Part shown: positions 8,649 to 38,040 of the stretch, piece by piece
Layout: each line of letters opens with the position of its first letter
How positions within the stretch are numbered: the first letter of the stretch is position 1
Virus record (IMG/VR): IMGVR_UViG_3300010158_000133
Location: 1 to 42,815 of that record
DNA from: a virus
Reading direction: 5' to 3' (one strand)
Length of the DNA: 42,815 bases
Notes under the pieces: generated by a model
The model's input: the letters and a program-made list of their open reading frames with translations, nothing else
Database searches by the model: none
What the model was told of the DNA's origin: nothing
Program-made: the position numbers and the translations under genes

Positions 8649-10028
8649 TTATATTTGAATTTCATCTTTAACGATAATAAATGATTCGTTATTTTTACCA
8701 AAATTAACATTACAACACTGACAACCCGTTATTGGATTTTGTAAATTAGATGACGCAAAAACATCTATTGTTTGGTCTAGTGTTGTCGCACATCCTGAAG
8801 CATTAGCATCAGGTACTGTTATAGTCATTTCAGATATTGATGTTCCGGTTACTCTATCTGCGTTTGTCATAGAAATAACATAATTCTCGTTTATTGTAGT
8901 ACCTGTAATATTTTCACTTCCGCAATTCGGTCTTGGTACTGTATAAGTTGAGGTTCTGCTTACTGATGGTGTTTGTAAAGTACTATTTAAATAAACTAAT
9001 GTTTGACCAGAAACTATTCCTTCTCCGGGCCCATTAACTAATTGAACATCACTAAAGGATAATACAAAGTTTATGTATGTACCAACATCAATTGGGTTAT
9101 CAAAGGTTAATTCCCAATCAGTAAGAATAATTCTTTTCCTTTGAGGATTATAAGTATCAACCAAAACTCTTTGGGATGTGATAGAAATTGAACCCGTATA
9201 TACTTTCGGTACTCCATCATAACCAATAGTTGCATTAAGTTGAAGTATACTACCAAGACTATCTTGAACATTAACAAGGTAATTATTTTCACATAACCCA
9301 TTAAAAATGTTTGATGGTTGGTAATTAATTCCATCGATTGAATATGAATATATTCCTGAACCTCCTGTAGGATAAACTGCAATACTACCATTACAAGGTG
9401 TTGTATTTTTACAAGTTGTATTTGTAGTAATTAATTCCGCGTCTAATCGTGATACAGTAGGACAACTCCCTTGTATTACCTGTAGATTTAAAATTAATGC
9501 GGCATTATTTCCTGTTGCATACCATCCGCTATCTGGTATATCAGAAACATTTAATGTGGTAAAAACTAATCCAACTCTATAAGTCATTTCCCATCTACCA
9601 CTACCTGAACCTGTGTTTGAAACTCTTGGATTCCAAGAAATTTTATATGTTGTTGTTCCATCAAAATATTCCCATTTTGTTTTACCATTTTCGGTTCCAT
9701 TTGGTGTGAATGCAAAATTAAATGTCTTTTTTTCCAAAATAAAAGTCATACACAAATTTGGTGGTGTCGGTGTTGGTAATTGGGGTGTTATTGGTATTAT
9801 TGTTTGATTTTTACAATCTCCATTACTTTTTATTAGAATATTTACTGCGTTGTTTGATACAACAATATCCACACCACTAAATAATTGTGAGTAAGGTACA
9901 TTAAGTGTGGGTGCACCGCCATTAACAAAAGTCGCAACTGTTGCTTGAGATGATTGGTCTAAATAACTAATATCATATGTTGCCGTATTATCTCCCGTTG
10001 TTAAACTAACTCTATAATTTACTGACAT
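8649..10028 (-). CDS. Virion adhesin-like protein with one SprB-like repeat, 459 aa
   Basis: Residues about 1-75 are a beta-rich head, followed by a short Pro-rich linker (QLPTPTPPN, about 84-92). Residues about 203-258 match a SprB-type repeat: paired Cys, NGSIAVYPTGGSGIYSYSID, then FNGLCENNYLVNVQDSLGS. SprB repeats are known from the flavobacterial gliding adhesin. The C-terminal part is Thr/Ser-rich and ends with a CQCCNVNF cluster. The start is 11 bases after the 823-aa gene. It is probably a tail-fibre or adhesin component on the particle surface; this follows from its place in the module and from the repeat type. Confidence 0.65.
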   Translation of the reverse strand: MSVNYRVSLTTGDNTATYDISYLDQSSQATVATFVNGGAPTLNVPYSQLFSGVDIVVSNNAVNILIKSNGDCKNQTIIPITPQLPTPTPPNLCMTFILEKKTFNFAFTPNGTENGKTKWEYFDGTTTYKISWNPRVSNTGSGSGRWEMTYRVGLVFTTLNVSDIPDSGWYATGNNAALILNLQVIQGSCPTVSRLDAELITTNTTCKNTTPCNGSIAVYPTGGSGIYSYSIDGINYQPSNIFNGLCENNYLVNVQDSLGSILQLNATIGYDGVPKVYTGSISITSQRVLVDTYNPQRKRIILTDWELTFDNPIDVGTYINFVLSFSDVQLVNGPGEGIVSGQTLVYLNSTLQTPSVSRTSTYTVPRPNCGSENITGTTINENYVISMTNADRVTGTSISEMTITVPDANASGCATTLDQTIDVFASSNLQNPITGCQCCNVNFGKNNESFIIVKDEIQI

Positions 10029-10039
10029 AATTATTTTTT

Positions 10040-12493
10040 TTATGGTGTTATTGTTATTGTAATACCACTACTTATTAACTGTGCAACCGCTGCGGTTGCT
10101 GTTGAACTAGAAATACCTTTCAAGGTTATTTTCTTTATATTAGTGTCAGGGTTATTCCAAGTTGACCCTGTTAAATCTATTAAAATATTATCTACAAATA
10201 GAGCATTATTCGTAACTGACCCAGCAATCTTGAGTTGTGTCATTTTGGTGGTAGCCCACTGATGAGGATAAGTATAAGTGTTTATTGTGTTATTACCTTC
10301 TATAGAAATATTATACGCACTTTGTGGTATATTTGCAGCATCTCCTGATATTACATTACGACTACCAATATAAAAACTTTCAATATTTGGTGGTAAATCA
10401 CCAACATCACCATAAGGAATTTCATTAATTGTTACCCCACTACCAAATAAATACATATTTTTTATTGTTCTTGGTAATCCAGCAACATCACCACCAACTT
10501 TATTATCTCCCGTTAATTCAAAATCTATTAACCCGTTTGGTAATCCGTATGTGTCTCCACTTATTGTATTATTTCCATAAACATAAAGTTTAGTTATACT
10601 TCTTGGTAATCCAAATGTATCTCCACTTATTTGATTATTTCCATACATCGAACAGAATGTCAATACTGGAGGTAAATCTGAAGTATTTCCATAAATTGTA
10701 TTGTTTCCTTGTATACTATATGCGATTGCCACTCTTGGTAATCCCGAAATATTTCCGGTGATAGTATTGTTACCAGTAATAAACGCGTTTGTTATTCCTG
10801 TTGGTAATCCCGCAACATCACCTGAAATTGTATTACTACCTTCAATATCCAAAATTGTTAAGTTTCTTGGCAAACCATAAGTACTTCCTGAAATTTTGTT
10901 ATTATAAGTAATCGTTGTACTTGTCAAATCAATAGGTAAATCATATGTTGAGCCTGATAATCTATTATTTGATGTGAATAAATAAGTTAAATTTATTGGT
11001 AATTCTGATACAATTCCACTTAACAAAATATTACTATTTAAAGTGGTATTAATTAATCCATCTAGTTTTTTAAATTCAGTTGTGGTTAATGTCATCGAAC
11101 CTGTAGTAACCGTAGCCGCGAAAAATTTTCCAATCGTTGATAAGTCCAAAGATTCCACAAAAATATCTCCTGTATATGGTGATGAATATGTATACGACGC
11201 CGTTCGTTCTGCACCAGGAGAATAATATGTTGATGTCGCTCCCGACCAAGTAACCAAATAACCATATGTAGTTGATGATAAAACCATACTAACCGTGGTT
11301 AATCCAATAGCCCCTAATTTCATTTTTTCCAATACATTTGTAGGAGTTAATGTTGGAGTTGGAGTCGGTGTAGTTGTGGTTGTGGTTGTTGGAGTCATAG
11401 TTGGTGTCGGAGTTGGAGTTTCAAATATTTGACTTGCTGCACCATTAAGATTACAATTAAGTGTTGGTGCAACTATTGAACAAGTTGTTGTCGCCGTATA
11501 ATCGCCATAATAGTCAATAACCGTACAGGTATAACTACCAGGTAATAAATTGTTAATAGTACTTGTCCTTGCACCTGTATTCCAATAATATGAGTAAGGA
11601 CTTGTTCCCCCATTAACAATAATTGATACTGAACCATTATTTGTCGTTTGAGTTGTTGTATTTGTTACCTGACACTGTATCGTCATAGGAATACTAACAA
11701 TAACACTACAATTATTATCATAAACATAAACAGGTATTGGTGGTGGTGCCGGTGTAAAAGAAGGTGTTGATGTCGGTGTTGATGTATAAGTTGGTGTAAC
11801 TGTTTGTGTTGGAGTAAAACTTGGTGTTGGAGTGTTTGTTGCAGTTGGTGATGGTGTAACACAAGGATTGAATCCTGCTGTCGGTATTGTAACAATATTT
11901 GATGAATGACTTAAGGATGGATTAAAATTAAAGGTTCCAACAGTATTGTTATAAGTATATGCCGTGTAATTTCCGCAACAATCATAATAATAAACATATT
12001 GCCCTGTTTGAGAATATCCAACTGTACAACTCACTCTAGAATTACAATCATCGCAATTCGCAGTTAGTTGTGTGGGTTTTGATTGTAGAAATGGTGCGGC
12101 GTATGATAAAGTATTTTCAATAACGGTTACACATCTTTGTGTAAATCCATATCTTGTATCATAAGTTTCAATTAAATATGTTTTACCTAATATTAATGTG
12201 TCTGTTGACGCCGATAAAATAAATTCATTTGAGCCACCACATTCAATAAACCTATAATTAGTAAACGTTGGTACTCCTATTAAAGAAATAACACCTGAAC
12301 CACCAGTAACTAAAGCCCAATTAGTACCATTATAATAATATCCATCAGGTACCGTAGGTCCTGAACATCCCGAACCAACATATATTATTCCATTTTGAAC
12401 AAATGATGTAACAGAATAACTACTTGCAACCGCATTTACCGCGATATATGCCGTTTGCCCTGAGGATAAAGATAAATTAATACAACTAACCAT
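10040..12493 (-). CDS. Virion adhesin with SprB-like domain, Pro-Thr linkers and leucine-rich repeats
   Basis: Domains in order are: a Cys-containing beta-rich head (about 1-210), a Pro-Thr linker (about 216-253), a SprB-like domain (about 270-350, NGSVSIIVNGGTSPYSYYWN then LLPGSYTCTVID), a second Pro-Thr linker (about 358-390), a globular part, and about 11 leucine-rich-like repeats (about 495-735) with the pattern GNNTISGDTxGLPxxIT and a period near 22. The frame extends to an ATG at 12511, but the ATG at 12493 gives a TAATATGG junction with the previous gene, as at 13360 and 27707, and is preferred. It is most likely a receptor-binding or fibre protein. No enzymatic motif was seen. Confidence 0.72.
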   Translation of the reverse strand: MVSCINLSLSSGQTAYIAVNAVASSYSVTSFVQNGIIYVGSGCSGPTVPDGYYYNGTNWALVTGGSGVISLIGVPTFTNYRFIECGGSNEFILSASTDTLILGKTYLIETYDTRYGFTQRCVTVIENTLSYAAPFLQSKPTQLTANCDDCNSRVSCTVGYSQTGQYVYYYDCCGNYTAYTYNNTVGTFNFNPSLSHSSNIVTIPTAGFNPCVTPSPTATNTPTPSFTPTQTVTPTYTSTPTSTPSFTPAPPPIPVYVYDNNCSVIVSIPMTIQCQVTNTTTQTTNNGSVSIIVNGGTSPYSYYWNTGARTSTINNLLPGSYTCTVIDYYGDYTATTTCSIVAPTLNCNLNGAASQIFETPTPTPTMTPTTTTTTTPTPTPTLTPTNVLEKMKLGAIGLTTVSMVLSSTTYGYLVTWSGATSTYYSPGAERTASYTYSSPYTGDIFVESLDLSTIGKFFAATVTTGSMTLTTTEFKKLDGLINTTLNSNILLSGIVSELPINLTYLFTSNNRLSGSTYDLPIDLTSTTITYNNKISGSTYGLPRNLTILDIEGSNTISGDVAGLPTGITNAFITGNNTITGNISGLPRVAIAYSIQGNNTIYGNTSDLPPVLTFCSMYGNNQISGDTFGLPRSITKLYVYGNNTISGDTYGLPNGLIDFELTGDNKVGGDVAGLPRTIKNMYLFGSGVTINEIPYGDVGDLPPNIESFYIGSRNVISGDAANIPQSAYNISIEGNNTINTYTYPHQWATTKMTQLKIAGSVTNNALFVDNILIDLTGSTWNNPDTNIKKITLKGISSSTATAAVAQLISSGITITITP
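10290..11015 (-). repeat. Leucine-rich-like repeat array in the 823-aa adhesin frame
   Basis: About 11 units of roughly 66 bases encode the motif G-[NS]-N-x-I-[ST]-G-[DN]-x-x-x-[LI]-P-x-x-[IL]-x-x. Isoleucine, Leu and Asn sit at LRR-like positions and GLP replaces the usual loop. Units differ enough that the array is diverged rather than freshly duplicated. One unit near 10390-10450 is longer, containing EIPYGDVGDLPP. Confidence 0.7.
11325..11420 (-). repeat. Pro-Thr linker 2 of the 823-aa adhesin
   Basis: A low-complexity tract encodes repeated T-P-T and poly-Thr between the SprB-like domain and the part that precedes the leucine-rich repeats. On the plus strand it appears as GT-rich DNA (gttggagttggagtcggtg). 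It is probably an extended, stiff spacer. Confidence 0.7.
11735..11850 (-). repeat. Pro-Thr linker 1 of the 823-aa adhesin
   Basis: A tract of Pro-Thr, Pro-Ser and Thr-Pro-Thr codons separates the N-terminal head from the SprB-like domain and ends in APPPIPV. It is of the same kind as the linkers at 12780-12930 and 18345-18790. Confidence 0.7.
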
Positions 12494-12494
12494 A

Positions 12495-13142
12495 TTATGG
12501 ACAAATTTCAAAACTATTTATTCGTCCAAACCTATCTATTTGAACTATGTAAAAATCATTACCAAATTTCATTTTTATATATCTATTGTTTCCATTATAT
12601 GGTGTATATAACACCCCATTTATGTATGTTTGATAAACAAAGATACCAATCACAGGAACTGTGTTGGAATCACTTATATAAGTATAAAGGTAGTTTAAAC
12701 TTAATTCATCATTACAAGTAAAACCACTTGATGAATAAACTGACCTGCCAATTAAATGACTTGCAATAACAGGTGTTGTAGTTGGTGTTTGAGTTGTGGT
12801 TGGAGTTTGTGTTGGAGTTTCTGTATTAGTTGGAGTTTGTGTGGGTGTTGGTGTATTGGTAGGCGTTTCTGTTGGAGTTTGAGTATTAGTTGGGGTTTGA
12901 GTTTGGGTTGGTGTCTGTGTTGGCATAGGTGTTATGTTAACATTTTCTCCTATTTCACATAATTGAGAATCCACTATTTTAAGTACAAAGTTTGTATCAG
13001 AATATGGTGATGGAACCTCAAATGAATATGGAAAAGATGATTCTGTTGATACATAAACACAATTTGCGCTCATCGCATCACAATAATATATGTCTACGGG
13101 CGTATTAGCCGTTACGGTTGATATGGTTACACTTTGACTCAT
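12495..13142 (-). CDS. Virion protein: small DVYI-type domain, Pro-Thr linker, C-terminal domain
   Basis: Residues 1-70 are a copy of a small beta domain also found in the genes at 13139 and 20349: TPVDIYYCD, a Cys, FPYSFEVPSPY, then LKIVDSQLCEI. Residues about 73-125 are a Pro-Thr-Gln-Asn linker made of TPTQTPTNT-like units. Residues about 126-215 form a compact C-terminal domain with IGIFVYQTYINGVLY and a KFGNDFYIVQIDRFGR strand pair. The start is in an ATGA overlap with the 73-aa gene. The layout is that of a tethered tip domain and suggests a small tail-fibre or decoration protein; no known family was recognised. Confidence 0.65.
   Translation of the reverse strand: MSQSVTISTVTANTPVDIYYCDAMSANCVYVSTESSFPYSFEVPSPYSDTNFVLKIVDSQLCEIGENVNITPMPTQTPTQTQTPTNTQTPTETPTNTPTPTQTPTNTETPTQTPTTTQTPTTTPVIASHLIGRSVYSSSGFTCNDELSLNYLYTYISDSNTVPVIGIFVYQTYINGVLYTPYNGNNRYIKMKFGNDFYIVQIDRFGRINSFEICP
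12780..12930 (-). repeat. Pro-Thr linker of the 215-aa protein
   Basis: About 150 bases encode 6- to 12-base units giving T-P-T-Q-T-P-T-N-T. The plus strand is strongly G/T biased here. The units match those in the 1217-aa gene about 6 kb away closely enough to be a substrate for recombination between the two genes. Confidence 0.75.
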
Positions 13143-16422: not shown

Positions 16423-19400
16423 TTATTCTTGTCCTCCATCTGTTATACCTGTCCATCCATATCCCGTTGGTGTTGCTCCTGTTAACAAATCTTTACCGGC
16501 TTGTCCATCAGCGGTGTATTTTGCAGTACCAAAACTTATTGTAAGTCCTGTTTTAACAGTTTTACCTCCTGATGTCCAACCTGTATATATATCTGTTAGA
16601 TTAGTTGCCGAGAATGTTGATGGTGTTTTATTTGCCATAAATCCTGTAAAATTAGTAACTCCCGAAACGTTCCAATTTCCTATCGGTTGGTTAAACGCAT
16701 TTGCCGAACTGAACATAGCATTCATATTTGAAACAGATGAAGTATCCCAACCTGCTAATGGTTGATTGAATGCTGATGTTAATTGGAACATATTCGCCAT
16801 AATTTGTACTTTAGAAACATTCCAATTTTCAATTGGCTGGTTAAATAATGCGGCTCCGCTAAACATAGAACCCATATTTGTAACGCCACTATTAATTGTC
16901 CAAGCAGATATTGATGTATCACCACTATTATTAAATTTAACTGCGTTTGAGAACATACTACTCATACTTGTAACTCCTGACATATTCCAATAACCAATCG
17001 GTTGGTTAAAGTTACTAGCAGTTGCAAACATTGATGCAGTATTCTGCAGACTTGTTGTTGTCCAACCAGATATCGATGGACTTCCTCCATTATTAAAATT
17101 AACCGCACTTCCAAACATAGCAGACATATTTTGTACTTTAGATACATCCCAAGAGCCAATATCTTGGTTGAATTGCGACGCACTTGCAAACATCGATGAC
17201 ATATTAGTAACACCCGAAACATTCCAACTTCCGATTGGCTGATTAAATGGTGTGGATGCAAACATAGCACTCATATTTGTAACTGCTGATGTCACCCAAT
17301 TATCTATTCCTGTAAATCCAGAATTTTTAAATGCTGAGGCTTGGAACATACTTTGCATTTTTACAACATTTCTTACATTCCAATTAGATAAATCTTGGTC
17401 GAATGAACTACATCCACCAAATAAATTCATCATACCACCAAAATTACTATTGTCGGTAACATTTCTAACATCCCAACTACCAACTGGTTGATTGAAAGAA
17501 CTACACTGATAGAACATATGACCTAAATTTGTCGCCGCAGACATAGTCCAACCACTTATCGAAGGACTTCCGTTGTTATTAAACAAGTACTGTCTGTGGA
17601 ACATATAATTGAATTGTTGCACCTTACTGGTATTCCAATTTCCAATATTTCTATTGAATTTTGCAACTCCCGCAGAATTAGAATAGAACATATAAGAAAA
17701 TACTGTATTGGCGCTAGTTATCCAATTATTAATTGAATTACTTCCTTTGTTGTCAAACTTGACAGCATCTTGGAACATACTTGATAAGTTTTGATTGTTT
17801 CTCATATCCCAACTACCCAAATCATCATCAAAATTACTCGCAGATGCAAACATACCACTCGAGTCAGTTACTTTTGACATATCCCAAGAACCAACATTAT
17901 TTATTGTTGTTAAAGAAGTACAACTATTAAAAGTTGATGTCAATTTAGTGGTTCCGCTCAAATTAATAACATCAGTAACTCCTGTTAACACTAAATTAGA
18001 ACATCCATAGAAATGTGCGGTTTGTCCGGTTCCCAATTGTAATGGTCCCCATCTTAACACCTCCACAATTTTTAATTTATCTCCCGAATTATTATATGAC
18101 CACCCTCTCAAATTACCTGGGTCAGCATAAATATTAATTGTGTATGTTCCAGGTGATGAATATGTGTGTGTTAATGAAGACGCTGACCACACATTCACAT
18201 AATCAGTATTTGTATCTCCCCAATCTATAATACAACTATAATTTGAATCCGATGTATTAACAAATGGTAATTTAACTTGATTAATGTTACTTGAACCAGT
18301 ACCTGTGAATGTTGTTGTAAATCTACCTGTAAAATTATCTAAAGGTCTAGTTGTCGTTGGAGTTGGAGTAGTTGTTTCTGTTGGTGTATTTGTAGGTGTT
18401 TGTGTCGGCGTTTCTGTATTAGTTGGTGTATTTGTAGGTGTTTGAGTTGGTGATGGAGTTGGTGATGGAGTTACTGGTGGTGTCGGTGGTATATACCCTC
18501 CAAATGTGTAACCCGATAAATCACAATCCGCATAATTTGTTGGTGATGGAGTTTGTGTCATCGTAGGTGTTTGTGTCGGTGTTTCAGTATTTGTAGGTGT
18601 TTGAGTTTGAGTTTGTGACGGTGTTTGAGTTTGAGTTTGTGTCGGCGTTTGAGTATTAGTTGGTGTTTGTGTCGGCGTTTGAGTATTAGTTGGTGTTTGT
18701 GTCGGCGTTGGTGGTGGTGTAGAAGGTATTGTGGTAGTTGTTGGTGTTGGTGTTATAGTTTGTGTTGGAGTTGACGTTTGACTTGGTAACGGTAAACAAT
18801 CATCACATTTACTAAATAAAGAATAAACATTATTAATTGTCGTATCAGGACTTAAATTTAGGTCATCTCTTAAATATTGAACACAAGTCCATTTTGTTCC
18901 ATTTGGTGATGTTACATTTGCATTAAATACTGTTCCAATAACCAATTGAACTGAATTATAAAGTATTGGTCCTGAAACATAATAATAGTTATTTAAAGTT
19001 CCGCACTCCAATAAAACTTTAACTGTTGAACAGTCAAATGGTGGGTCAATAATTGTAAATGTTGCCTTACCCAATATTTCTAATATGTTTGTTGGTGTTA
19101 AAGTTGGTGTTGCAGTTACTGACGGTGTCGGTGTTGGCGATGAATAAAATATTGAAAAATTTACGCCTACATTATATACAGGGCTTGCAGATGGTGTCGG
19201 TGGTATTGGTGAATTTGTGAAATCAAAATTAACAACTACACAATCAGTAGATACTGTTGGCGTAACTGGTGGAACGTATGCGGCATCAAAATACGCATTA
19301 AAATCAATAGCAAAATTACCAACAGGTGTTGGTGTAGGTGTTGGGCAAGGTCCAAAATCAAAAGAATTAAATGCTAAATCAGGACAGTCAGAGTACCAAG

Positions 19401-20076
19401 GAGATTTACCCTCAAGTAAACAAGCGCCACCTAAACTATTACTTAAACACCATCTATCACCTGTGAAGTAAATTACTCCACCTGATGTTCCATCACCAGT
19501 AAATGAATTTTTTAAATTGTAAGTGTCTGCCGATACAAAATTACCACTATAACCTGATAGTGTTGGATTACTCGTTCCAAAACAAAATTCAATATAATTA
19601 CACGATGGACAAAGACCATCGCTACAACCTGTTACAAGTGTAAAAATAACACCCGAACTATCATATAAGTCTCCAACATCATCATTTGTTACTAATGTTG
19701 CACACCCTTCAAAAAAACCTGTATTAGAAATGTAATATGTATTACCAATTGTATCTGGTAATCCAACTCCGCTAAATCTAAAAACATTTGAAGAGTTATA
19801 ACAATCTTGAAATTTTATTGTTGTTGAAAAACAAATTCCCGTTGCAATAAGTATACCTGATAAATCAACCTCATAACAAGTGTCTCCTCCATCAGAACGG
19901 TCTGAATAATAACCAGGTCTTGCCCGAGTACTACACTCCGCATTAGAATACAATAAACTACCAATTTGTATTGGTGAATCAGGTGAATAATATGTATTAT
20001 TAGACACTAAATTACAAGCGTCTGTGCAACTTGAAGACGTATAGGTTAACCTACGAGATAATGCGGTACAAGCCAT
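16423..20076 (-). CDS. Virion adhesin with Pro-Thr linkers, PKD-like domain and BspA-type repeats, 1217 aa
   Basis: The domain order is: a Cys-rich head (about 1-250, with CSDGLCPSCNYIEFC), short TPTPTP linkers and a further domain (about 250-430), a long Pro-Thr-Gln linker (about 430-577), a PKD-like beta domain (about 580-690, IIDWGD, then LTHTYSSPGTYTINIY), and BspA/DUF285-type repeats (about 709-1145). The repeats carry NMSSMFA, FNQPIGSWNVS and KVQNMSAMF motifs with a period of about 25. A final tail contains LTDIYTGWTSGGK and PTGYGWTGITDGG, which often follows BspA repeats. BspA-type repeats mediate binding in Bacteroidetes and oral bacteria. Here they probably form a receptor-binding tip on an extended stalk. 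A candidate late element lies upstream at 20093-20100. Confidence 0.8.
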   Translation of the reverse strand: MACTALSRRLTYTSSSCTDACNLVSNNTYYSPDSPIQIGSLLYSNAECSTRARPGYYSDRSDGGDTCYEVDLSGILIATGICFSTTIKFQDCYNSSNVFRFSGVGLPDTIGNTYYISNTGFFEGCATLVTNDDVGDLYDSSGVIFTLVTGCSDGLCPSCNYIEFCFGTSNPTLSGYSGNFVSADTYNLKNSFTGDGTSGGVIYFTGDRWCLSNSLGGACLLEGKSPWYSDCPDLAFNSFDFGPCPTPTPTPVGNFAIDFNAYFDAAYVPPVTPTVSTDCVVVNFDFTNSPIPPTPSASPVYNVGVNFSIFYSSPTPTPSVTATPTLTPTNILEILGKATFTIIDPPFDCSTVKVLLECGTLNNYYYVSGPILYNSVQLVIGTVFNANVTSPNGTKWTCVQYLRDDLNLSPDTTINNVYSLFSKCDDCLPLPSQTSTPTQTITPTPTTTTIPSTPPPTPTQTPTNTQTPTQTPTNTQTPTQTQTQTPSQTQTQTPTNTETPTQTPTMTQTPSPTNYADCDLSGYTFGGYIPPTPPVTPSPTPSPTQTPTNTPTNTETPTQTPTNTPTETTTPTPTTTRPLDNFTGRFTTTFTGTGSSNINQVKLPFVNTSDSNYSCIIDWGDTNTDYVNVWSASSLTHTYSSPGTYTINIYADPGNLRGWSYNNSGDKLKIVEVLRWGPLQLGTGQTAHFYGCSNLVLTGVTDVINLSGTTKLTSTFNSCTSLTTINNVGSWDMSKVTDSSGMFASASNFDDDLGSWDMRNNQNLSSMFQDAVKFDNKGSNSINNWITSANTVFSYMFYSNSAGVAKFNRNIGNWNTSKVQQFNYMFHRQYLFNNNGSPSISGWTMSAATNLGHMFYQCSSFNQPVGSWDVRNVTDNSNFGGMMNLFGGCSSFDQDLSNWNVRNVVKMQSMFQASAFKNSGFTGIDNWVTSAVTNMSAMFASTPFNQPIGSWNVSGVTNMSSMFASASQFNQDIGSWDVSKVQNMSAMFGSAVNFNNGGSPSISGWTTTSLQNTASMFATASNFNQPIGYWNMSGVTSMSSMFSNAVKFNNSGDTSISAWTINSGVTNMGSMFSGAALFNQPIENWNVSKVQIMANMFQLTSAFNQPLAGWDTSSVSNMNAMFSSANAFNQPIGNWNVSGVTNFTGFMANKTPSTFSATNLTDIYTGWTSGGKTVKTGLTISFGTAKYTADGQAGKDLLTGATPTGYGWTGITDGGQE
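16640..17950 (-). repeat. BspA-type (DUF285) repeat array
   Basis: About 16 units of roughly 75 bases encode M-x-x-M-F-x-x-A-x-x-F-N-Q-x-I-G-x-W-[DN]-[VM]-[SR]-x-[VS]-x. Some units are replaced by a variant with NNGGSPSISGWT. Many units share near-identical DNA (for example ttccaatttcctatcggttgg and its relatives), so unequal exchange within the gene is possible. Confidence 0.8.
18345..18790 (-). repeat. Long Pro-Thr-Gln-Asn linker tract
   Basis: About 445 bases encode TPTQTPTNTQTPT-like units, interrupted once by a segment with a single Cys (DCDLSGYTFGGYIPP, about 18480-18540). It is the longest low-complexity tract in the window and lies between the head and the PKD/BspA part of the 1217-aa protein. 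A short Cys-containing island in the linker may act as a small folded knot. Confidence 0.8.
18641..18710 (-). repeat. Perfect 30-base tandem repeat inside the Pro-Thr linker
   Basis: The 30 bases at 18641-18670 recur exactly at 18671-18700, and the first 9 bases of a third copy follow. Each copy encodes ten residues in frame (QTPTNTQTPT in register). Exact identity means a recent duplication and a likely site of length change that keeps the reading frame. Confidence 0.85.
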
Positions 20077-20368: not shown

Positions 20369-20576
20369 TTTTGAACGTTTCGTATCCATTAGCACCACTC
20401 ATTATAACCATCACCTGAGGTGCAGAATTAAATAAAGAAGGAGGATATTCATAAACTGTCGGAGGCGTTGCCGCGCTCAATTGTCCCAAATAATATCTAT
20501 TATTACCATAGGAGTCTGCAATATATACATCTGTAGGCGTGTACCCCGTAAAATATGTTATTTCTAGTCTTGTCAT
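20349..20576 (-). CDS. Free-standing small DVYI-type domain, 75 aa
   Basis: The sequence has FTGYTPTDVYIADSYGNN, a Tyr-rich strand, PPTVYEYPPSLF and FKIIDASL, so it is a third clear copy of the small domain seen at 13139-13360 and at the start of the 215-aa protein, here without Cys. The ATG at 20576 overlaps the TGA of the SprB-repeat gene (ATGA); the longer TTG frame from 20585 is not needed. It probably works with the 713-aa protein as a virion part. Function unknown. Confidence 0.65.
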   Translation of the reverse strand: MTRLEITYFTGYTPTDVYIADSYGNNRYYLGQLSAATPPTVYEYPPSLFNSAPQVMVIMSGANGYETFKIIDASL

Positions 20577-22714
20577 CCTGTACAATAAATATCATAATCT
20601 ATAGTCAAATAAACTTTTACATCAAGTGATGAAACCAAATCTTGTCTGCCAGCATCACTCAAAATTGTTATTTCATTATTGATTTCATCTATGATTACCT
20701 CACCAACACCAATTGAACTTGATAATAAATTTTGTATTGAATTATAAAATAAGTTATCTTGAGGTACATCAAGTAATGAATATGTTGTATAAAATACTTC
20801 AGTTACTTCAGGACTAAGTGGGTTAACCTTTACTCTTGTGGTAAATGTTGCGGAAGATAAATTACATCCCGTTTCTCCAGATGTTAAATCTTGGAATCCC
20901 TCATTTAACATTTTTGATAAACTATATTTTGTATTTGTAATTAATTCAAATGTTTGTTCTCCAACAGTATAAGATTGATATGAATCAAAAGAAGTACTTC
21001 CGTTGATTGTTGTGGTTCTTTTCAAAGATGACCCATTTGAGTCAATAACAATCAAACTATACGTACCTGCAGTTAATCCTGTGACAGTTATTGTTTGTGG
21101 GTTATCCATTACGTTATCAGACCAACTATACGTAAATGGTGGTTTACCTGAGGATATAAGAGCAGTTATTGTTCCTCCACTATTTGAACCTGCGGTTGTT
21201 GGTATTAATAAAAAATCTACAACCGGAACATACTCCACATACACATTAACATTTTGTTTACACCCCACCGAATCCACCACAACAACTTCGTGTTGTCCTG
21301 AAGATAAATCATAAAACGTAACTGCAGATAATATACTATTTGAAATACTAGTTTTATTGTCTAATATATAAGCATATGGTTCTGTACCCCCTGTTGATTT
21401 TGTAACCGTAACTGTCCCGTTTTTTTGACCGTAAGTTGCTGATGTAGAAACCGCAGATATTGAAAAGGATTCTTGATTATAAATCGTATAATCATTCATA
21501 TAAGTACAACCAGAAGAGTCCGAAACAGATAAGTTATAAGTCCCTGCAGATAAATTTGAAAATAAATTATACATTAAATCAGTATTAACCTCCTTAACTG
21601 ACAAATCAGGATAAGTTAATGAATATAAAAAAGGATTGTTTCCACCCTGAATTGATACGGTTATCGCACCTTCGGAGAAAGAACAATTTGTATTTTTTGT
21701 TTCAATATTAACGGATGTCATACCTGATGGTGTATTCAAAGTAGTTCCAATTGAATCACTACAGAAAGCGGCATCTGTTACTTGAACTGTATATGGTCCA
21801 GCACCAATATTTTCTAATGTAAATGTACTTAAATAAGAAATTTCAACATATCCCGTAGATGCCGAGTAATAGTATGGTGGTGTTCCTCCAGTTAACTGAA
21901 CCGTTAAACTACCATCATTAGTTAAACAAGAGGGAGGATTTGCTGTGAATGCAACAAGTTGGACGGGATTTAAATTTACTATGGTTCCCGATTTTATAAC
22001 AGAGCAATTATAATAATCTCTAACATCAACACTATAATCTCCGGCAGTTAATCCTGTAATATAATTTGTCTCATCACCTGTGTTCCACTTATACGTATAT
22101 GGTGGTGTTCCCGTTAATCCTGTTACATAAATCTTACCAATTGGTGTATATCCACACGCGGCGTTTGGAACAACATATAATCCGTAATCAAGTGTTGGCG
22201 ATTTTTCTATGATAAAACTCTCACTTCTTCCTGTACATCCTCCTAAATCTTGAGCAATCATATAATAAGTTCCTGCAGTAAGATTTTGGAATGTTGTGTT
22301 GTTTACACTTGTTGTTGATGAAGTAACATAAGTATTGTCTGAATTGTATAGATAAATTTCGGTATAAGAAAAATTGGAAGAACTACTAACTGTTGCAGTT
22401 CCATTATTTAAATCACAAGTTGTATTTGTTACACTTGTTAAAAAACAAGAAACACCGCTTGAAACAGGTACATTAACAAATATTTGATTATTAGTAGGTG
22501 CCGATGAGTCTGTTATAAGTATTGTATATGTACCGGCACTAAGTCCTGTTCTTGAAGATAAGTCTGTACTTGCATCTACACCTAAATCAGGGTCCAACCA
22601 CTGTACATTATATTTTGGTGTCCCTCCATTTGGAATAATGATTATTGCACCTGAGTTTGTTGAAGAACAGTCTCCCGTCAATATAACATTATAATTTAAA
22701 CCAAAAGTTTCCAT
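20573..22714 (-). CDS. Virion adhesin of about seven SprB-like repeats, 713 aa
   Basis: Repeats lie at about residues 14-70, 96-160, 186-237, 261-318, 343-403, 428-485 and 508-560. The shared pattern is C at the start, a G-x-[IL]-x-V strand, G-G-T-P-P-Y-x-Y-x-W, then L-[ST]-A-G-T-Y-x-[VL]-x-[VI]-x-D. This is the SprB repeat, known from the large gliding adhesin of flavobacteria and related Ig-like surface proteins. Residues about 575-713 form a non-repeat C-terminal domain, perhaps the particle anchor or receptor tip. No signal peptide or type IX sorting domain is present, so it is not a stolen secreted host protein but is probably built into the tail. It starts 3 bases after the 992-aa baseplate gene. 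Confidence 0.78.
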   Translation of the reverse strand: METFGLNYNVILTGDCSSTNSGAIIIIPNGGTPKYNVQWLDPDLGVDASTDLSSRTGLSAGTYTILITDSSAPTNNQIFVNVPVSSGVSCFLTSVTNTTCDLNNGTATVSSSSNFSYTEIYLYNSDNTYVTSSTTSVNNTTFQNLTAGTYYMIAQDLGGCTGRSESFIIEKSPTLDYGLYVVPNAACGYTPIGKIYVTGLTGTPPYTYKWNTGDETNYITGLTAGDYSVDVRDYYNCSVIKSGTIVNLNPVQLVAFTANPPSCLTNDGSLTVQLTGGTPPYYYSASTGYVEISYLSTFTLENIGAGPYTVQVTDAAFCSDSIGTTLNTPSGMTSVNIETKNTNCSFSEGAITVSIQGGNNPFLYSLTYPDLSVKEVNTDLMYNLFSNLSAGTYNLSVSDSSGCTYMNDYTIYNQESFSISAVSTSATYGQKNGTVTVTKSTGGTEPYAYILDNKTSISNSILSAVTFYDLSSGQHEVVVVDSVGCKQNVNVYVEYVPVVDFLLIPTTAGSNSGGTITALISSGKPPFTYSWSDNVMDNPQTITVTGLTAGTYSLIVIDSNGSSLKRTTTINGSTSFDSYQSYTVGEQTFELITNTKYSLSKMLNEGFQDLTSGETGCNLSSATFTTRVKVNPLSPEVTEVFYTTYSLLDVPQDNLFYNSIQNLLSSSIGVGEVIIDEINNEITILSDAGRQDLVSSLDVKVYLTIDYDIYCTG
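21035..22675 (-). repeat. SprB-like repeat array
   Basis: Seven diverged units of about 165-250 bases encode Ig-like SprB domains. Conservation is at protein level only (GGTPPYTY, LTAGTYxxxVxD), so this is an old array. Similar single units occur in the 459-aa and 823-aa proteins. Confidence 0.75.
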
Positions 22715-22717
22715 ATA

Positions 22718-25696
22718 TTAACACGTTATGTTTACATTTATTCCCACACTCAAAGTTAATGTTTGATTTAGGTTTAATGGCTGTGTGCCTAAATTTGTTA
22801 TTGTTAATTGATTACCACTTATATTATAATTCAAATTATAATTTAATAAGGCCGGTAATGCTAAAATTAATGCCGCTCTCCAGTCACCATTTGATGGTGA
22901 ATTGTTCAAACCTGTTCCATAGTAGAATGGTTTATGTATAATTCTATTATTTCCTATTGATAAATCAACATACCAAGTAGATGTAAGTGAATTCGCACCA
23001 TTACAAGTTTGTATTGTATAGGTTGGACTAATTGCACTATTAACCGCCTGAGTCAACACCCCATTAAAGTTAGTATATGTTGTATTACCATTTAACCAAG
23101 GAAAAATATTTAAATTAATATATTCTGTTGATTGGCTATAGTTATTCAAAGATGTAACAATTGAACAAGGTTTTGCTAGTTTTGGTTCAACCAAACAACC
23201 TCTATTTCTTCTATATACAAATTTTTGTCTTTGTAATACAGAGTTCTCATACCTAATTCCTCCCTGCCAAATTGTTGTTGCGGGAACCATTTGTTCTACT
23301 AATTTCAACCAATATGGTCCCATACCAATAACGTAATCAATCAATTTTTGATATGTGTATTGATTATTTTGTATTCCAATATTTTCTTCTTGTAATAAAT
23401 AATTCCACCAAAGTGATTGTAACGTTGGGTATCCTCCTGTTTTTCCATCAGTTATAAATTGGCGATTTCTGGTATTAATCATATTCTGCCAGAAAGTTTT
23501 TGAAAATTCAAAGAATGTTTTTCTTTGTGGTTTTGGGTCAATAAAGGTAGAATCAACCCCACCCGGTACAGGATAATACGCTGTTAAGCCGCTTTCAGGG
23601 ATTGGGTAATTATAAAGTCTCGATTGTTCCCATATTTCATATGTAAGTCCTTGTCCAGGATTTAAAAATATGTCAGTATTTTTTACATTTAAAACTAATC
23701 TTTCGTTATCAAGATAATAATAAGCGTTGTAATTTCCTTGACTTGCACTTCTTAACTTATCATCAGTTTCTAACCAAGATTTATTATTATCAATAATCCT
23801 TAATAATTTAAATCCATCATTTATATATGGAAAATTTCTATAGGTATTTAAATATTCTTGACCGTAACTAAATGGTGTTAATTGACTTTGTATTTGAGTG
23901 TTTTGTCCTTTATATACATTTCCTGTTACCACCACTTCTTCAGGGCTCCTGTGAGATGGTGTTTGTTCATACCATCCCGCACCTTTTTGAAAAAAGTTTG
24001 ATTCAGTTGGTTTTGGTGCGTATGGGTATCCATCATAATCAATTGGATACTCCGATAAACTAACATTAACGTCCGTATAACTATCTTGTGTAGTAAAACC
24101 TGTGAACACCCTACCCCTAATTTTAAAAGTGTTTGTTGAGTCTAATGCCGGTTTTTCTTCAACGTATGTTCCTCCTGATATTTTACCAAATTGTTTATCA
24201 AAATTTTCAATATCAATTTTTTGGTCTGCAAGATATATATATTCGTTATACTCAATTAAAGATTCGGGAGCTCCTATTAAATTTAATAAAAACTCAACAG
24301 ACCTTCTTGTACCTTTTGATTTAAAAATATACGCCGAATTTAAAATTAAATTCCTGTAAAATGCGTAGTTTAATTCTGTCGGTGTTTGAGCTCTTGCATA
24401 ACCAGGGTAATTAGATTTAGTTTGATTACCAAAAATAGATGTTAGATAATCTTCATTTGTTATTGGTGAAAAATTTCCGTTCCATCCTAATGTTTGAGCC
24501 AAATCAGATAAAAGTTCTGATGGAATATCGTTTGATGGGTTATAATTAACTGAGTTTGCAAACGCAAGACCGTCAACATATTTTTTTAAATCATCAAAAC
24601 TTCTTCCATATATTTGAAAAACTCGTTCGACTTTTCTACCTAAAGTATCAAATTCTTTTAAAGAACCTGCAGTCAAAAATCTTGATATCAAGTTAGTTTT
24701 AAAAGTATCTAATTCTTCGGAAATAGATTGAAGTTGTGTCAAATAGTTGTCAAATGCAAACGACCTAATATCTAAATTCCACGGTCCGTCTTTTGGCCAA
24801 GTAACTTGTTGATAATTAGTATAAAATTGACCGTCTTGATTTTGTGCTGGAATTTGAAATATTGCAGTATATATTGGTTGTATTAATCTATTCAATAAAA
24901 ACTGTTCAATTTCATCAAATGTCTCCGCAAATATTTTATCCACAATAAAATCATTTGGCCTGATTTGAAAATCATTTGACCAAGTTGTTGCAGTATTTCC
25001 AAATGGGGCACCTGAAACATAAAAAGCGATATATCCTGTATATAAAGAATCTGATGGTTGAAAAGATAAAACTTTATACTCTGTGCCATCAAATACCACG
25101 GCATAGTCAAGATAAGTATTATTTAAGTTTCTGTAAGGTGAAACAGTATTTCCTGTTGAAATTAGATTATTTGTCGCATTAACAGTATAATCAACCCCTA
25201 TTGGATTAAAAATCCTATCCACATTAACCTCAAAATACGTTTCGTCATTTACAGAATCATAAGAAATATTGATTGCTGTGTTTCCTGTTGTAAAAGTTGG
25301 TGTTGTAAACATAACATCCAAAGACGCAGGAAAATAATTAATAATTTTTGTTACAGAAGTACTAAGTCTTTTCGCTAATGAACCATACAAAGAAAAATTT
25401 AATACTTGAGAAATATCATAGTTTGGATGAACTCTGAATTGACTTGATTGTATTCTTTCACTTTGAATAACGCTATCAACACCCAAATCAGAAAGATTTA
25501 CAGGTTTTGCAAATTCTCCTACACCGAAAGTTCTATTAACTTTGTCAACAACATTTGTAGTAAATTCAAAATTACCTTGCGTAAGTCCTCCTCCATCTAC
25601 AATTTGTAGACCAACAATATTGTCGGAAAAAGTCCCAGCACCGTTACCAGGTCTCGGCGGATAGTAATATTTTGTTTTTTTAATTGTAGTTGCCAT
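22718..25696 (-). CDS. Baseplate/tail protein with P2 gpI-like motif, 992 aa
   Basis: Residues about 455-485 (ILNSAYIFKSKGTRRSVEFL then LNLIGAP) match the conserved core of phage tail protein I (P2 gpI) and of baseplate proteins in related phages, in which a K-G-T-x-x-[AS]-[LV] turn is followed by a hydrophobic helix. Residues about 250-400 are helical (EIEQFLLNRL, LKEFDTLGRKVERVF), and the N- and C-terminal parts are beta-rich. The stop and the next ATG overlap by one base (TAATG). It probably sits at the tail end where fibres attach, since adhesin genes follow at once. A full-length match to a known protein is not evident to me. Confidence 0.65.
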   Translation of the reverse strand: MATTIKKTKYYYPPRPGNGAGTFSDNIVGLQIVDGGGLTQGNFEFTTNVVDKVNRTFGVGEFAKPVNLSDLGVDSVIQSERIQSSQFRVHPNYDISQVLNFSLYGSLAKRLSTSVTKIINYFPASLDVMFTTPTFTTGNTAINISYDSVNDETYFEVNVDRIFNPIGVDYTVNATNNLISTGNTVSPYRNLNNTYLDYAVVFDGTEYKVLSFQPSDSLYTGYIAFYVSGAPFGNTATTWSNDFQIRPNDFIVDKIFAETFDEIEQFLLNRLIQPIYTAIFQIPAQNQDGQFYTNYQQVTWPKDGPWNLDIRSFAFDNYLTQLQSISEELDTFKTNLISRFLTAGSLKEFDTLGRKVERVFQIYGRSFDDLKKYVDGLAFANSVNYNPSNDIPSELLSDLAQTLGWNGNFSPITNEDYLTSIFGNQTKSNYPGYARAQTPTELNYAFYRNLILNSAYIFKSKGTRRSVEFLLNLIGAPESLIEYNEYIYLADQKIDIENFDKQFGKISGGTYVEEKPALDSTNTFKIRGRVFTGFTTQDSYTDVNVSLSEYPIDYDGYPYAPKPTESNFFQKGAGWYEQTPSHRSPEEVVVTGNVYKGQNTQIQSQLTPFSYGQEYLNTYRNFPYINDGFKLLRIIDNNKSWLETDDKLRSASQGNYNAYYYLDNERLVLNVKNTDIFLNPGQGLTYEIWEQSRLYNYPIPESGLTAYYPVPGGVDSTFIDPKPQRKTFFEFSKTFWQNMINTRNRQFITDGKTGGYPTLQSLWWNYLLQEENIGIQNNQYTYQKLIDYVIGMGPYWLKLVEQMVPATTIWQGGIRYENSVLQRQKFVYRRNRGCLVEPKLAKPCSIVTSLNNYSQSTEYINLNIFPWLNGNTTYTNFNGVLTQAVNSAISPTYTIQTCNGANSLTSTWYVDLSIGNNRIIHKPFYYGTGLNNSPSNGDWRAALILALPALLNYNLNYNISGNQLTITNLGTQPLNLNQTLTLSVGINVNITC

Positions 25697-26604
25697 TAAG
25701 TTGTTATATTGTTAAAACTTTTACTAAAATCAATATCATTACCTCTACTTTGTCTAACCTCATACAATAATGAATTGAATTGGTCTCTAACTTCAAATAA
25801 GTTGTATTGTCTGAAGATATTATTATTAGAATCGTAGATTGTGTAAATACCGTCATCAATTGACTTGGTTTGATTACCATAAAGAGCAATTGCTAATGTG
25901 TCTATGTCATACTCGGCCATTTGTATGTCTATAGTTATAGGATTAAAAAAAGTATTTGTTATTATAATATTTTGGTCGGGTTGTCCTATGAATGGTGTTG
26001 CGTTTGGTTTGTTTGTTGGTGATGATGATGGTGTTAAAGTTAAAAATAGCAAATTAGATATTCCATCAACATATCTATATCTAACCGCCTTTTGAGTTGT
26101 GTTTGTTAGATTCACAACAACGGGTTCACAAAAGAAACAAGATGTTACTATTCTAAAAAAATTCGGTATTTTACTTCCATCAGGATTGAGATATTCAATT
26201 CTAAAACCAATTAACCCTTGGGGCACAAATTTATTAATAAATTGTGATGGTATATTTGCCAAATCAATAATAATACCTTTAACGTTTGGTAGCGCACTTA
26301 AAACACCACAATCGGTAATTGTTGTTCTGATTTCGGCTGGTCTTACATATAATGTATAAAAACCTAAAGCGTTAAATGTATCTGCAGGTAATGTTAAATT
26401 ATATAGTCCCCCAAGGATTTCAATATTTGTATTTCCACCCGTTTGAGCGTTATGAAAATATGGTCTTAAAACCGTTGGTGCGTTGAGGGTTTTTAATACA
26501 AAATTATCGGTTACATCCCTTGTGGGTGTATAATTTAATATTATTTCTACATCTTCAGGACTTACGTCTGAGGGTCGCGTGGCCCCGTATGTTCCAATTG
26601 CCAT
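25696..26604 (-). CDS. Baseplate-associated structural protein, 302 aa
   Basis: The N-terminal YGATRPSDVSPEDVEIILNY and VLRPYFHNAQTGG look like a tail-assembly protein that lies on others. The rest is beta-rich with a FCEPVVVNLT Cys strand and a C-terminal helix (LFEVRDQFNSLLYEVRQSRG). No known domain was identified. It follows a 23-base gap with a TATTTATA element and may head the left half of the baseplate block. A function in baseplate assembly is inferred from its neighbours. Confidence 0.6.
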   Translation of the reverse strand: MAIGTYGATRPSDVSPEDVEIILNYTPTRDVTDNFVLKTLNAPTVLRPYFHNAQTGGNTNIEILGGLYNLTLPADTFNALGFYTLYVRPAEIRTTITDCGVLSALPNVKGIIIDLANIPSQFINKFVPQGLIGFRIEYLNPDGSKIPNFFRIVTSCFFCEPVVVNLTNTTQKAVRYRYVDGISNLLFLTLTPSSSPTNKPNATPFIGQPDQNIIITNTFFNPITIDIQMAEYDIDTLAIALYGNQTKSIDDGIYTIYDSNNNIFRQYNLFEVRDQFNSLLYEVRQSRGNDIDFSKSFNNITT

Positions 26605-35725: not shown

Positions 35726-37564
35726 TTACGAGAATGTTACTGATTGGAAATTCTTTACAGAAACTCTAATATCTTTATTTGGATATCTTATTTGATATAT
35801 CTGACTTGGTTCCGCAAATATTGTGTCGTCTACCGGTTGAATTTGTTTTGTTTCTGCATCCAAATAGGCCATCGAAGTTTGAGAAGACGAATATTGTCCT
35901 CCTACATTATTAAACACATCTAAACCTGTTACTGTTATTACCCCGTTTTGGTTTTGTATGATACTTTTTATTTCTGATAAATAAACGTTCTGACCAAGTT
36001 GTCTATTTAATGGGTCTAAATACGCGGAAATACTATTAATAATATTTGATACAACTTGACCTGAGTTTTGAGTTGCTTGCAAAACAACAGAAATATTTAA
36101 AGATAAATCAATAACATCCGCAGTCATAACTGAAATATAATCATTCATCATTCTATAATTCGATAGATAATTGGCAATATTTTGTTTTAAAGTATTTGAT
36201 ACAATATTTGTTAATTTACCTGTTGTATCATATGATAAAATTTGAATATCAATTTTATTATTATTTTCTGTTATCGCCACTTTAGCAGGTGCTCCAAACT
36301 GAGCGGGCATATTTCTAAGTAATGCGTTATAATCTTGGATGGTAACCGCTCTTTTTTGTGCCGCAAAATTAAAAGAAACAAAGTTTCTAACTTCTTCTGT
36401 TGTTGGGGCGTTTGACCCACCTATTGCTGCTGTAACATTATTACATCTTAAAGAACCAATTACCGAAGTATTTGTTGTTTCAGAAGGACCGTTTACAAAG
36501 AAAGAAACTGTACCTATTTGATTAATTACATTAACACCTAAATTAGTTGCCAATCCTCCCCCAATTCTATACTGAACAAATAATGTTGAGTTTACAGGTA
36601 AGGTAGAACCTAATGAAAAATTATTAGATAATGTTTGAATATTTAAAGGACCTCCAAATGCGGTAAATTGATTTAAAGCATCTTGAGCGGATGTACTTCC
36701 TCCACCAAATATAATTCTTTTAAAACCTTCAGGTGTAAATTCGGACATAAATCTATTATTTGTCTGAACGTAACTACCGACTTTTATACCTGGTTGGTCT
36801 GAAACTTTAGTTGGGTCTTCAACAAATATTCTGTCTTCAGCTAAAGCGTCGACCTCATACCATCTATTATTTAAACCTAAAAATTCCGCAGTTGTTGGGA
36901 CGTTTGTATAATCAGTACCACTTTTTATTAAAACACTTGTTATACCTAAAACATTTCTTTCAGGTAAAAATAATTCAAAAAAGGGTCTAACATCATTTGG
37001 TGTTATAACTCTTTTAAAAACTTTAGTAATTCCATTAACAACTAATTCTCTTTTAGTTATTGTATAATTAACCAAAACACCATTACCATTAAAGTTAGGA
37101 ATTTTTAATCTATTAAGATCACCTTGAGAATTGTATGGGGATGCAAAATCAATATCATATAAATTTTCAAATGCTTGTCCCGCACCACTAACTTGTGAAC
37201 CTCTTAACAAAACACCCAAATATCTTTCATCTTCTTTGTCACCATATGCTGGTACCGTTATTGAAAAATCAACAAGGGATACTGATGGTCTTAATCCCGG
37301 AATTTTCAATCCATAAGTTCTTGCGATGTTATATATTGACGACCTTTGTTGTGCGTATTGTAAAACTGTTTCTTGTATACTTCTATCAATATGGTAATGT
37401 AAATTGTCGGCAATTGCCGCGTTTAAGTCCAAAAAAACTGAAAACACAGAAGCATCACTAAAGTCTTGGATTAAATTAGGGTAGTAAGTCCTAACATAAT
37501 TAAGAAGTTCTAATCTTATTCCTTCATAATCTCTTACCGTATAAGATATTTTACCGTTAGCCAT
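35726..37564 (-). CDS. Baseplate wedge protein gp6-like (baseplate J family)
   Basis: The N-terminal third has DFSDASVFSVFLDLNAAIAD, NLHYHIDRSIQE and YGLKIPGLRPS, the pattern of T4 gp6 and baseplate J proteins. Residues about 405-430 (RAVTIQDYNALLRNMPAQFG, then APAKVAI) match the strand-helix motif common to the family. Length is 612 residues against 660 in T4. In the baseplate, gp6 links neighbouring wedges into the inner ring together with gp25 and gp53. It starts 5 bases after the gp25-like gene, the typical partner. I am confident of the family but not of one-to-one equivalence with T4 gp6. Confidence 0.85.
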   Translation of the reverse strand: MANGKISYTVRDYEGIRLELLNYVRTYYPNLIQDFSDASVFSVFLDLNAAIADNLHYHIDRSIQETVLQYAQQRSSIYNIARTYGLKIPGLRPSVSLVDFSITVPAYGDKEDERYLGVLLRGSQVSGAGQAFENLYDIDFASPYNSQGDLNRLKIPNFNGNGVLVNYTITKRELVVNGITKVFKRVITPNDVRPFFELFLPERNVLGITSVLIKSGTDYTNVPTTAEFLGLNNRWYEVDALAEDRIFVEDPTKVSDQPGIKVGSYVQTNNRFMSEFTPEGFKRIIFGGGSTSAQDALNQFTAFGGPLNIQTLSNNFSLGSTLPVNSTLFVQYRIGGGLATNLGVNVINQIGTVSFFVNGPSETTNTSVIGSLRCNNVTAAIGGSNAPTTEEVRNFVSFNFAAQKRAVTIQDYNALLRNMPAQFGAPAKVAITENNNKIDIQILSYDTTGKLTNIVSNTLKQNIANYLSNYRMMNDYISVMTADVIDLSLNISVVLQATQNSGQVVSNIINSISAYLDPLNRQLGQNVYLSEIKSIIQNQNGVITVTGLDVFNNVGGQYSSSQTSMAYLDAETKQIQPVDDTIFAEPSQIYQIRYPNKDIRVSVKNFQSVTFS

Positions 37565-37569
37565 ATTAA

Positions 37570-38040
37570 TTAAATATTAATAATTACAAAATCACTCTGT
37601 GCAAATGTCGCAGAATCTGTTGAATAGTTTATTGTTATTTTTGCAGTATAATCGGCAGTTCCTTTACCAGGAACACGAAATATATATGGAACATCACTTA
37701 CGGTACTTCTGTTTTCAACACCGACAGGTGATTCATCCTCAACACTTGCAGGCTCAATCGTAATATTATTAACCAATAAATTTGGCATATAATTATTGAT
37801 TGCATCTCTGATGTCAGATTCTATCGCACTAAATGTTAAACCATCAAAAGGTTCAAAAATAAATTCATATATTCTTGTACCAAAATTTGGTAAGTAATAC
37901 CTTGAGCCTCTTCTCGTTAAAATTAAATGAATTAACGCTGCTCTGATTTCATCTTTTTGAAATTGAGTTAATTGTAAGTAATCACCAACTTTAGAATCTC
38001 TAAATGGGAAATTTATACCATATGTCCTTCCGTCTGCCAT
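37570..38040 (-). CDS. gp25-like baseplate wedge protein
   Basis: The core DEIRAALIHLILTRRGSRYY followed by LPNFGTRIYEFIFEPF and AIESDIRDAINNYMPNL is the hallmark of the GPW/gp25 family, whose members start sheath assembly and anchor the baseplate in contractile tails and type VI secretion. Length is 156 residues against 132 in T4 gp25; the extra part is a C-terminal insertion (PASVEDESPVGVENRS). It is the first gene of the virion block, after a 20-base gap that holds a TATTTAT element, and is followed by the gp6-like partner. This gene is the best single proof of a contractile tail. Confidence 0.88.
   Translation of the reverse strand: MADGRTYGINFPFRDSKVGDYLQLTQFQKDEIRAALIHLILTRRGSRYYLPNFGTRIYEFIFEPFDGLTFSAIESDIRDAINNYMPNLLVNNITIEPASVEDESPVGVENRSTVSDVPYIFRVPGKGTADYTAKITINYSTDSATFAQSDFVIINI

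Follow-up and report, generated by a model that had tools for sequence, protein, structure and literature searches.

Our analysis indicates that a 'gliding adhesin' domain can be a constant unit of a phage tail block, and that a SprB label in a phage genome is by itself no evidence of adhesin function. The window, which is the whole stretch of 42,815 nucleotides analysed here, carries at 20573..22714 on the minus strand the gene of a 713-aa protein with seven tandem SprB-type, Ig-like units. What is new is that this seven-unit array is an invariant core gene of the tail block in a large uncultured lineage of T4-like water phages, where it marks the border between the constant baseplate and the exchangeable fibres. 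We consider, with a probability of roughly 0.6, that the product is a constant baseplate arm or adaptor, in which a rod of seven Ig-like units together with a C-terminal domain holds the exchangeable fibres in position, perhaps with some weak adhesion of its own.

The plus strand over 20573-22714 is full of stops and noncoding, and the gene reads from 22714 to 20573 on the minus strand; the preliminary description had given these coordinates exactly and had not named the strand. It had also reported seven SprB-type repeats, and both the family and the number were confirmed. In a Pfam-A search the best family of the 713-aa protein was SprB (PF13573; E=5.2e-19, 68 bits against a curated cut-off of 28 bits), matched in six stretches. 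A search at the DNA level gave separate SprB matches for all units but one, six in total, and unit 2, which is missed by Pfam alone, was recovered by profile-profile comparison (hhalign) with units 5 and 6 at a probability of 97%. The AlphaFold2 model, which was built from a 37-sequence alignment of homologues (mean pLDDT 82), predicts all seven as consecutive Ig-like beta-sandwiches, followed by a linker of low confidence (residues 572-595) and a C-terminal alpha/beta domain.

The units, each of which is delineated by predicted strands and by hhalign, lie on the minus strand as follows. Unit 1 (residues 5-88; 22451..22702) has its SprB match at 22586-22669 and aligns with units 3-7, while unit 2 (residues 89-172; 22199..22450) is the most diverged. 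Unit 3 (residues 174-249; 21968..22195) is matched at 22073-22138, and unit 4 (residues 250-330; 21725..21967) has the best SprB match (21851-21949, 35.7 bits). Units 5 (residues 331-414; 21473..21724), 6 (residues 415-497; 21224..21472) and 7 (residues 498-571; 21002..21223) are matched at 21614-21703, 21356-21433 and 21110-21178, respectively. The pTM of the whole-protein model is low (0.35) and the angles between the units are not predicted by it. The C-terminal domain (residues 596-713; 20576..20929, minus strand) reached a pTM of 0.71 when modelled alone, and it has no known relative: Foldseek against the PDB gave no match with E<=0.001. Weak Foldseek matches to a metal-binding domain and to a sheath-tube were disregarded. 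Units 2 to 5 contain the cysteine pairs 100/160, 187/237, 263/318 and 344/403, which show little or no variation among the 37 relatives; they are odd for a protein assembled in a reducing cytoplasm, and it is possible that disulfides form after lysis.

The protein shares its repeat family with Flavobacterium SprB, but the latter is a large adhesin on the cell surface that leaves the cell through the type IX system, whereas the phage protein is 713 aa long and lacks signal and sorting domains. Judged from the translation, its N-terminus METFGLNYNVILTGDCSS contains no hydrophobic segment or signal peptide, and no CHU_C or Por_Secre_tail type IX sorting domain was matched in Pfam at E<=1, in a search that does detect CHU_C in a protein of the phage record LR756502. 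One of the 37 relatives gave a weak Por_Secre_tail match. Because the signal and sorting domains are absent, we rejected the idea that the gene is a captured host adhesin secreted from the infected cell, in agreement with the preliminary description; the gene is moreover a core member of the tail block, and we give this origin next to no chance, even though LR756502 offers such a case. In that 642 kb record (L010, 12298-17310) a 1670-aa protein has a signal-like N-terminus and, besides 13 SprB repeats, contains a PKD domain and a type IX sorting domain of the CHU_C family. It is distinct from the 713-aa protein and a genuine candidate for a secreted adhesin captured by a phage.

SprB is the best Pfam family in all 37 relatives, and several other Ig-like labels overlap with it. 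Matches to DUF1918, BiPBP_C and Y_Y_Y in the relatives were read as side labels of Ig-like folds and not as functions. The PHROG matches among the relatives included the Hoc-like families phrog_3945 (19/37) and phrog_2973 (9/37) as well as phrog_26672, 'virion structural protein' (14/37), with E=3.6e-21 for the best Hoc-like match; the PHROG search of the window's own 713-aa protein gave none. The profile of the protein weakly matches a phage decoration protein and a neck-whisker protein. A phmmer search against PDB sequences found no match, and the closest solved fold is the grappling-hook protein GhpA of Aureispira (PDB 9flp, 9fly, 9flw; E=4e-20), followed by eukaryotic Ig chains. GhpA is likewise a chain of similar Ig-like units, but it is a bacterial protein of about 5,000 residues and the whole-chain TM-scores are low (0.2). 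Bent chains are expected to give such scores, and the resemblance is therefore one of unit to unit. Therefore, the SprB-type units are a general Ig-like building block, and the SprB label alone is no indication of an adhesin function.

The preliminary description placed the gene right after baseplate genes, and the neighbourhood bears this out. Upstream and in the same direction lie a gp25-like baseplate wedge protein (37570..38040, minus strand; phrog_261, E=1e-17; PF04965) and a baseplate wedge gp6/Baseplate_J-like protein (35726..37564, minus strand; phrog_219, E=2e-21; PF04865), and six uncharacterised tail-block genes separate the two from the SprB-repeat gene. The most conserved member of the tail block is a 302-aa protein (25696..26604, minus strand), which is encoded by at least 544 viral contigs. 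A 992-aa protein (22718..25696, minus strand), encoded by at least 160 viral contigs, is the immediate upstream neighbour in every relative and ends 3 bases before the SprB-repeat gene starts; it partially matches a Microcystis phage tail-region protein, and its profile search against the PDB and PHROGs gave nothing convincing. Downstream of the SprB-repeat gene PT-rich, DUF285 and other fibre-like proteins are encoded. The first large one, a 1217-aa PT-rich/DUF285 protein (16423..20076, minus strand; DUF285 E=5e-111), is found in only 3 of 80 sister loci and, with its PT-rich linkers, is likely an exchangeable fibre; DUF285 is a family described from Mycoplasma. In the sister phages L041, L046, L055 and L061 its place is taken by very large collagen-like (GTSGTSG-type) reading frames.

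The window itself holds gp25 and gp6 of the T4-like myophage genes searched for, and six of the eight large sister contigs (115-309 kb) hold gp23 capsid (E about 1e-62) and T4 portal (E about 1e-76) genes; a sheath match stayed below the cut-off in all eight. The T4-type capsid and portal genes of the sisters therefore identify the carrier as a T4-like myophage lineage. No isolate of this lineage was found in the collections searched, nor were proteomics or microscopy of it. The lineage is abundant, and most of its tail proteins are without a named family.

Throughout this lineage the SprB-repeat protein has a length of about 710 aa in sister contigs and follows the same baseplate-side gene each time. 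In a first batch of loci it came next after the 992-aa neighbour in all 78 that extend past the neighbour; in a second batch, which overlaps with the first in some contigs and is thus not fully independent of it, it was present in all 65 loci with room for it, every absence coincided with a contig end, and no second copy of the gene was seen. The Pfam SprB match was above the cut-off in 8/8 large sister contigs. The protein can serve as a universal single-copy marker for the lineage.

The array itself is equally constant. The alignment of 43 non-redundant homologues spans 713 columns with hardly a gap, at an identity of about 48%, and in a unit-by-unit comparison each unit of the window best matched the unit at the same position in other phages (294/294). 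The lineage therefore spread with an array that was already complete. The pairwise identities of the SprB-repeat protein and of its 992-aa neighbour are closely correlated (r=0.94, with no replaced pair), the former diverging about twice as fast. The next gene downstream shows identities as low as 7-8% even in pairs whose neighbours share 85-99%, and few of the 80 loci contain the downstream genes that the window has. The hypervariability or exchange between close relatives that is expected of a receptor-binding tip was not observed in the SprB-repeat protein; it is the downstream gene that is exchanged. Gene exchange is the usual sign of host-range change. Thus the co-divergence with the neighbour and the swapped downstream gene place the SprB-repeat protein in the constant tail block, with the exchange zone beginning one gene later. 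Taken together with the fixed number of seven units, this makes a constant arm or adaptor the most likely function, with the choice of host made downstream.

We envisage that the seven rigid Ig-like sandwiches would form an elongated rod closed by the small alpha/beta domain. The position of the gene suggests that the product is a virion protein, as the preliminary description had stated; made beside the baseplate proteins, it would most likely sit on or near the baseplate, where it could space and hold the exchangeable fibre or tip proteins whose genes follow immediately. It may also add a weak, reversible sticking to the Bacteroidota surface. In a subgroup of relatives a PT-rich linker is fused to the C-terminus, in some cases together with a further repeat domain, which shows that the C-terminal end can display modules. 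In L045 (12985-16386) the SprB protein bears one such repeat domain as a C-terminal fusion, and a 90% identical copy of the domain stands as a separate ORF just downstream in L054 (12985-16114); the difference could be due to gene fission or fusion, or to an assembly error. Some points count against an arm: the C-terminal domain is without a structural relative that would indicate the anchor, the twofold faster divergence compared to the neighbour leaves room for some host selection, and the Hoc-like matches fit a head-decoration protein equally well.

The last point leads to an explanation which we regard as unlikely, namely that the array is a Hoc-like surface adhesin that decorates the tail or the head, binds glycans weakly, raises the rate of host encounter and holds no fibres. 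T4 Hoc, which sits on the capsid, is also a T4-like phage virion protein of tandem Ig-like domains, the relatives match Hoc-like PHROGs, the profile of the protein has the weak decoration and neck-whisker matches given above, and mucus- or epithelium-binding Ig-like phage proteins have been published. However, the 713-aa gene has its own C-terminal domain and is locked to the baseplate block rather than to head genes, and the fixed length and unit number are more in keeping with a part that bears load than with a decoration that is optional. Fibre-assembly genes can lie between baseplate and fibre genes, which is exactly where the SprB-repeat gene is located, and one could argue that it encodes a chaperone or scaffold for tail-fibre assembly that is missing from the finished particle. 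Yet a rigid multi-Ig rod is typical of a virion part and not of a chaperone, and the relatives match virion structural families, which makes such a helper very improbable.

The host phylum is probably Bacteroidota, judging from genomic signals: the genes are without a Shine-Dalgarno signal (3-4%, the same as background), a Bacteroidota-type promoter motif is 3-4 times commoner than in shuffled sequence (a rough factor, as the shuffle keeps base composition only), and the SprB family itself points the same way. Two scans for the tail proteins across 84,980 genomes of bacteria and archaea, made by pattern and reaching fairly close relatives only, revealed no relative and no direct host link. In flavobacteria the gliding-machinery proteins, including SprB and RemA, are among the proposed phage receptors (PMC7345892, PMC13288928). 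These proposals are compatible with the idea of SprB binding but do not support it for the 713-aa protein. One would argue that the repeats copy the gliding adhesin of the host, enabling the phage to bind either the same sugars or, repeat to repeat, SprB itself, and the consistent ranking of SprB as best Pfam family would agree with this. Against such mimicry, there is no sign of exchange or recent transfer, the units being ancient and fixed; the SprB repeats are an Ig-like family in their own right, with overlaps to several others; no evidence was found that they bind sugar or each other; and the genome scans, within their reach, gave no bacterial relative. We therefore hold mimicry to be quite improbable. 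The more specific picture, in which the array would bind SprB-family repeats (or the same sugars) on a gliding host, and the moving adhesin would first carry or anchor the phage and the exchangeable fibres would then choose the strain, appears distinctly improbable to us. The earlier suggestion that the repeat type points to binding of the adhesin or of its sugars is thus not supported: the array is ancient, invariant in number and order, and tracks the tail genes, and several Ig-like labels apply to it, of which SprB is just the best.

Arrays of Ig-like and BACON domains were already known from phage tails, and the tandem BACON-domain arrays beside the tail genes of crAssphage were suggested to assist the tail in binding to the surface of the host (de Jonge et al. 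2019, PMC6949934). Both systems place Bacteroidota-type beta-sandwich domains in tandem beside tail genes, but the crAssphage arrays belong to another domain family, vary in number by lineage and have a poorly conserved C-terminus, whereas the array described here always has seven units. UniProt already lists a homologue under the name 'SprB repeat [uncultured Caudovirales phage]' (A0A6J5LD72, 714 aa); it has the same fold over its whole length (Foldseek E=1e-60, 32% identity) and evidently represents this protein in a different uncultured phage. Its name is automatic only, and no functional study of it was found in the literature searched, nor was any paper describing SprB repeats in phage virions found in the open-licence PMC literature. 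Apart from this entry, LR756502 was the only matching record in the named phage collection.

Single SprB-type units also occur in two other tail-region proteins of the window, one of 823 aa (unit at 11570-11644, minus strand) and one of 459 aa (unit at 9330-9431, minus strand), and both are kept in the sister phage L009, the unit being reused across the tail. The 823-aa protein (10040-12511, minus strand) also contains tandem short repeats of the GLPxNLTxLxIxGNNTISG type, with a sub-threshold FNIP match only. Finally, a 609-aa protein (1518-3347, minus strand) combines a G8 domain and a beta-helix of the CEMIP type with a signal peptide in Bacteroidota style (MKKIMLLGMLFITQILSAQ), and is possibly a secreted, phage-borne polysaccharide-degrading enzyme.
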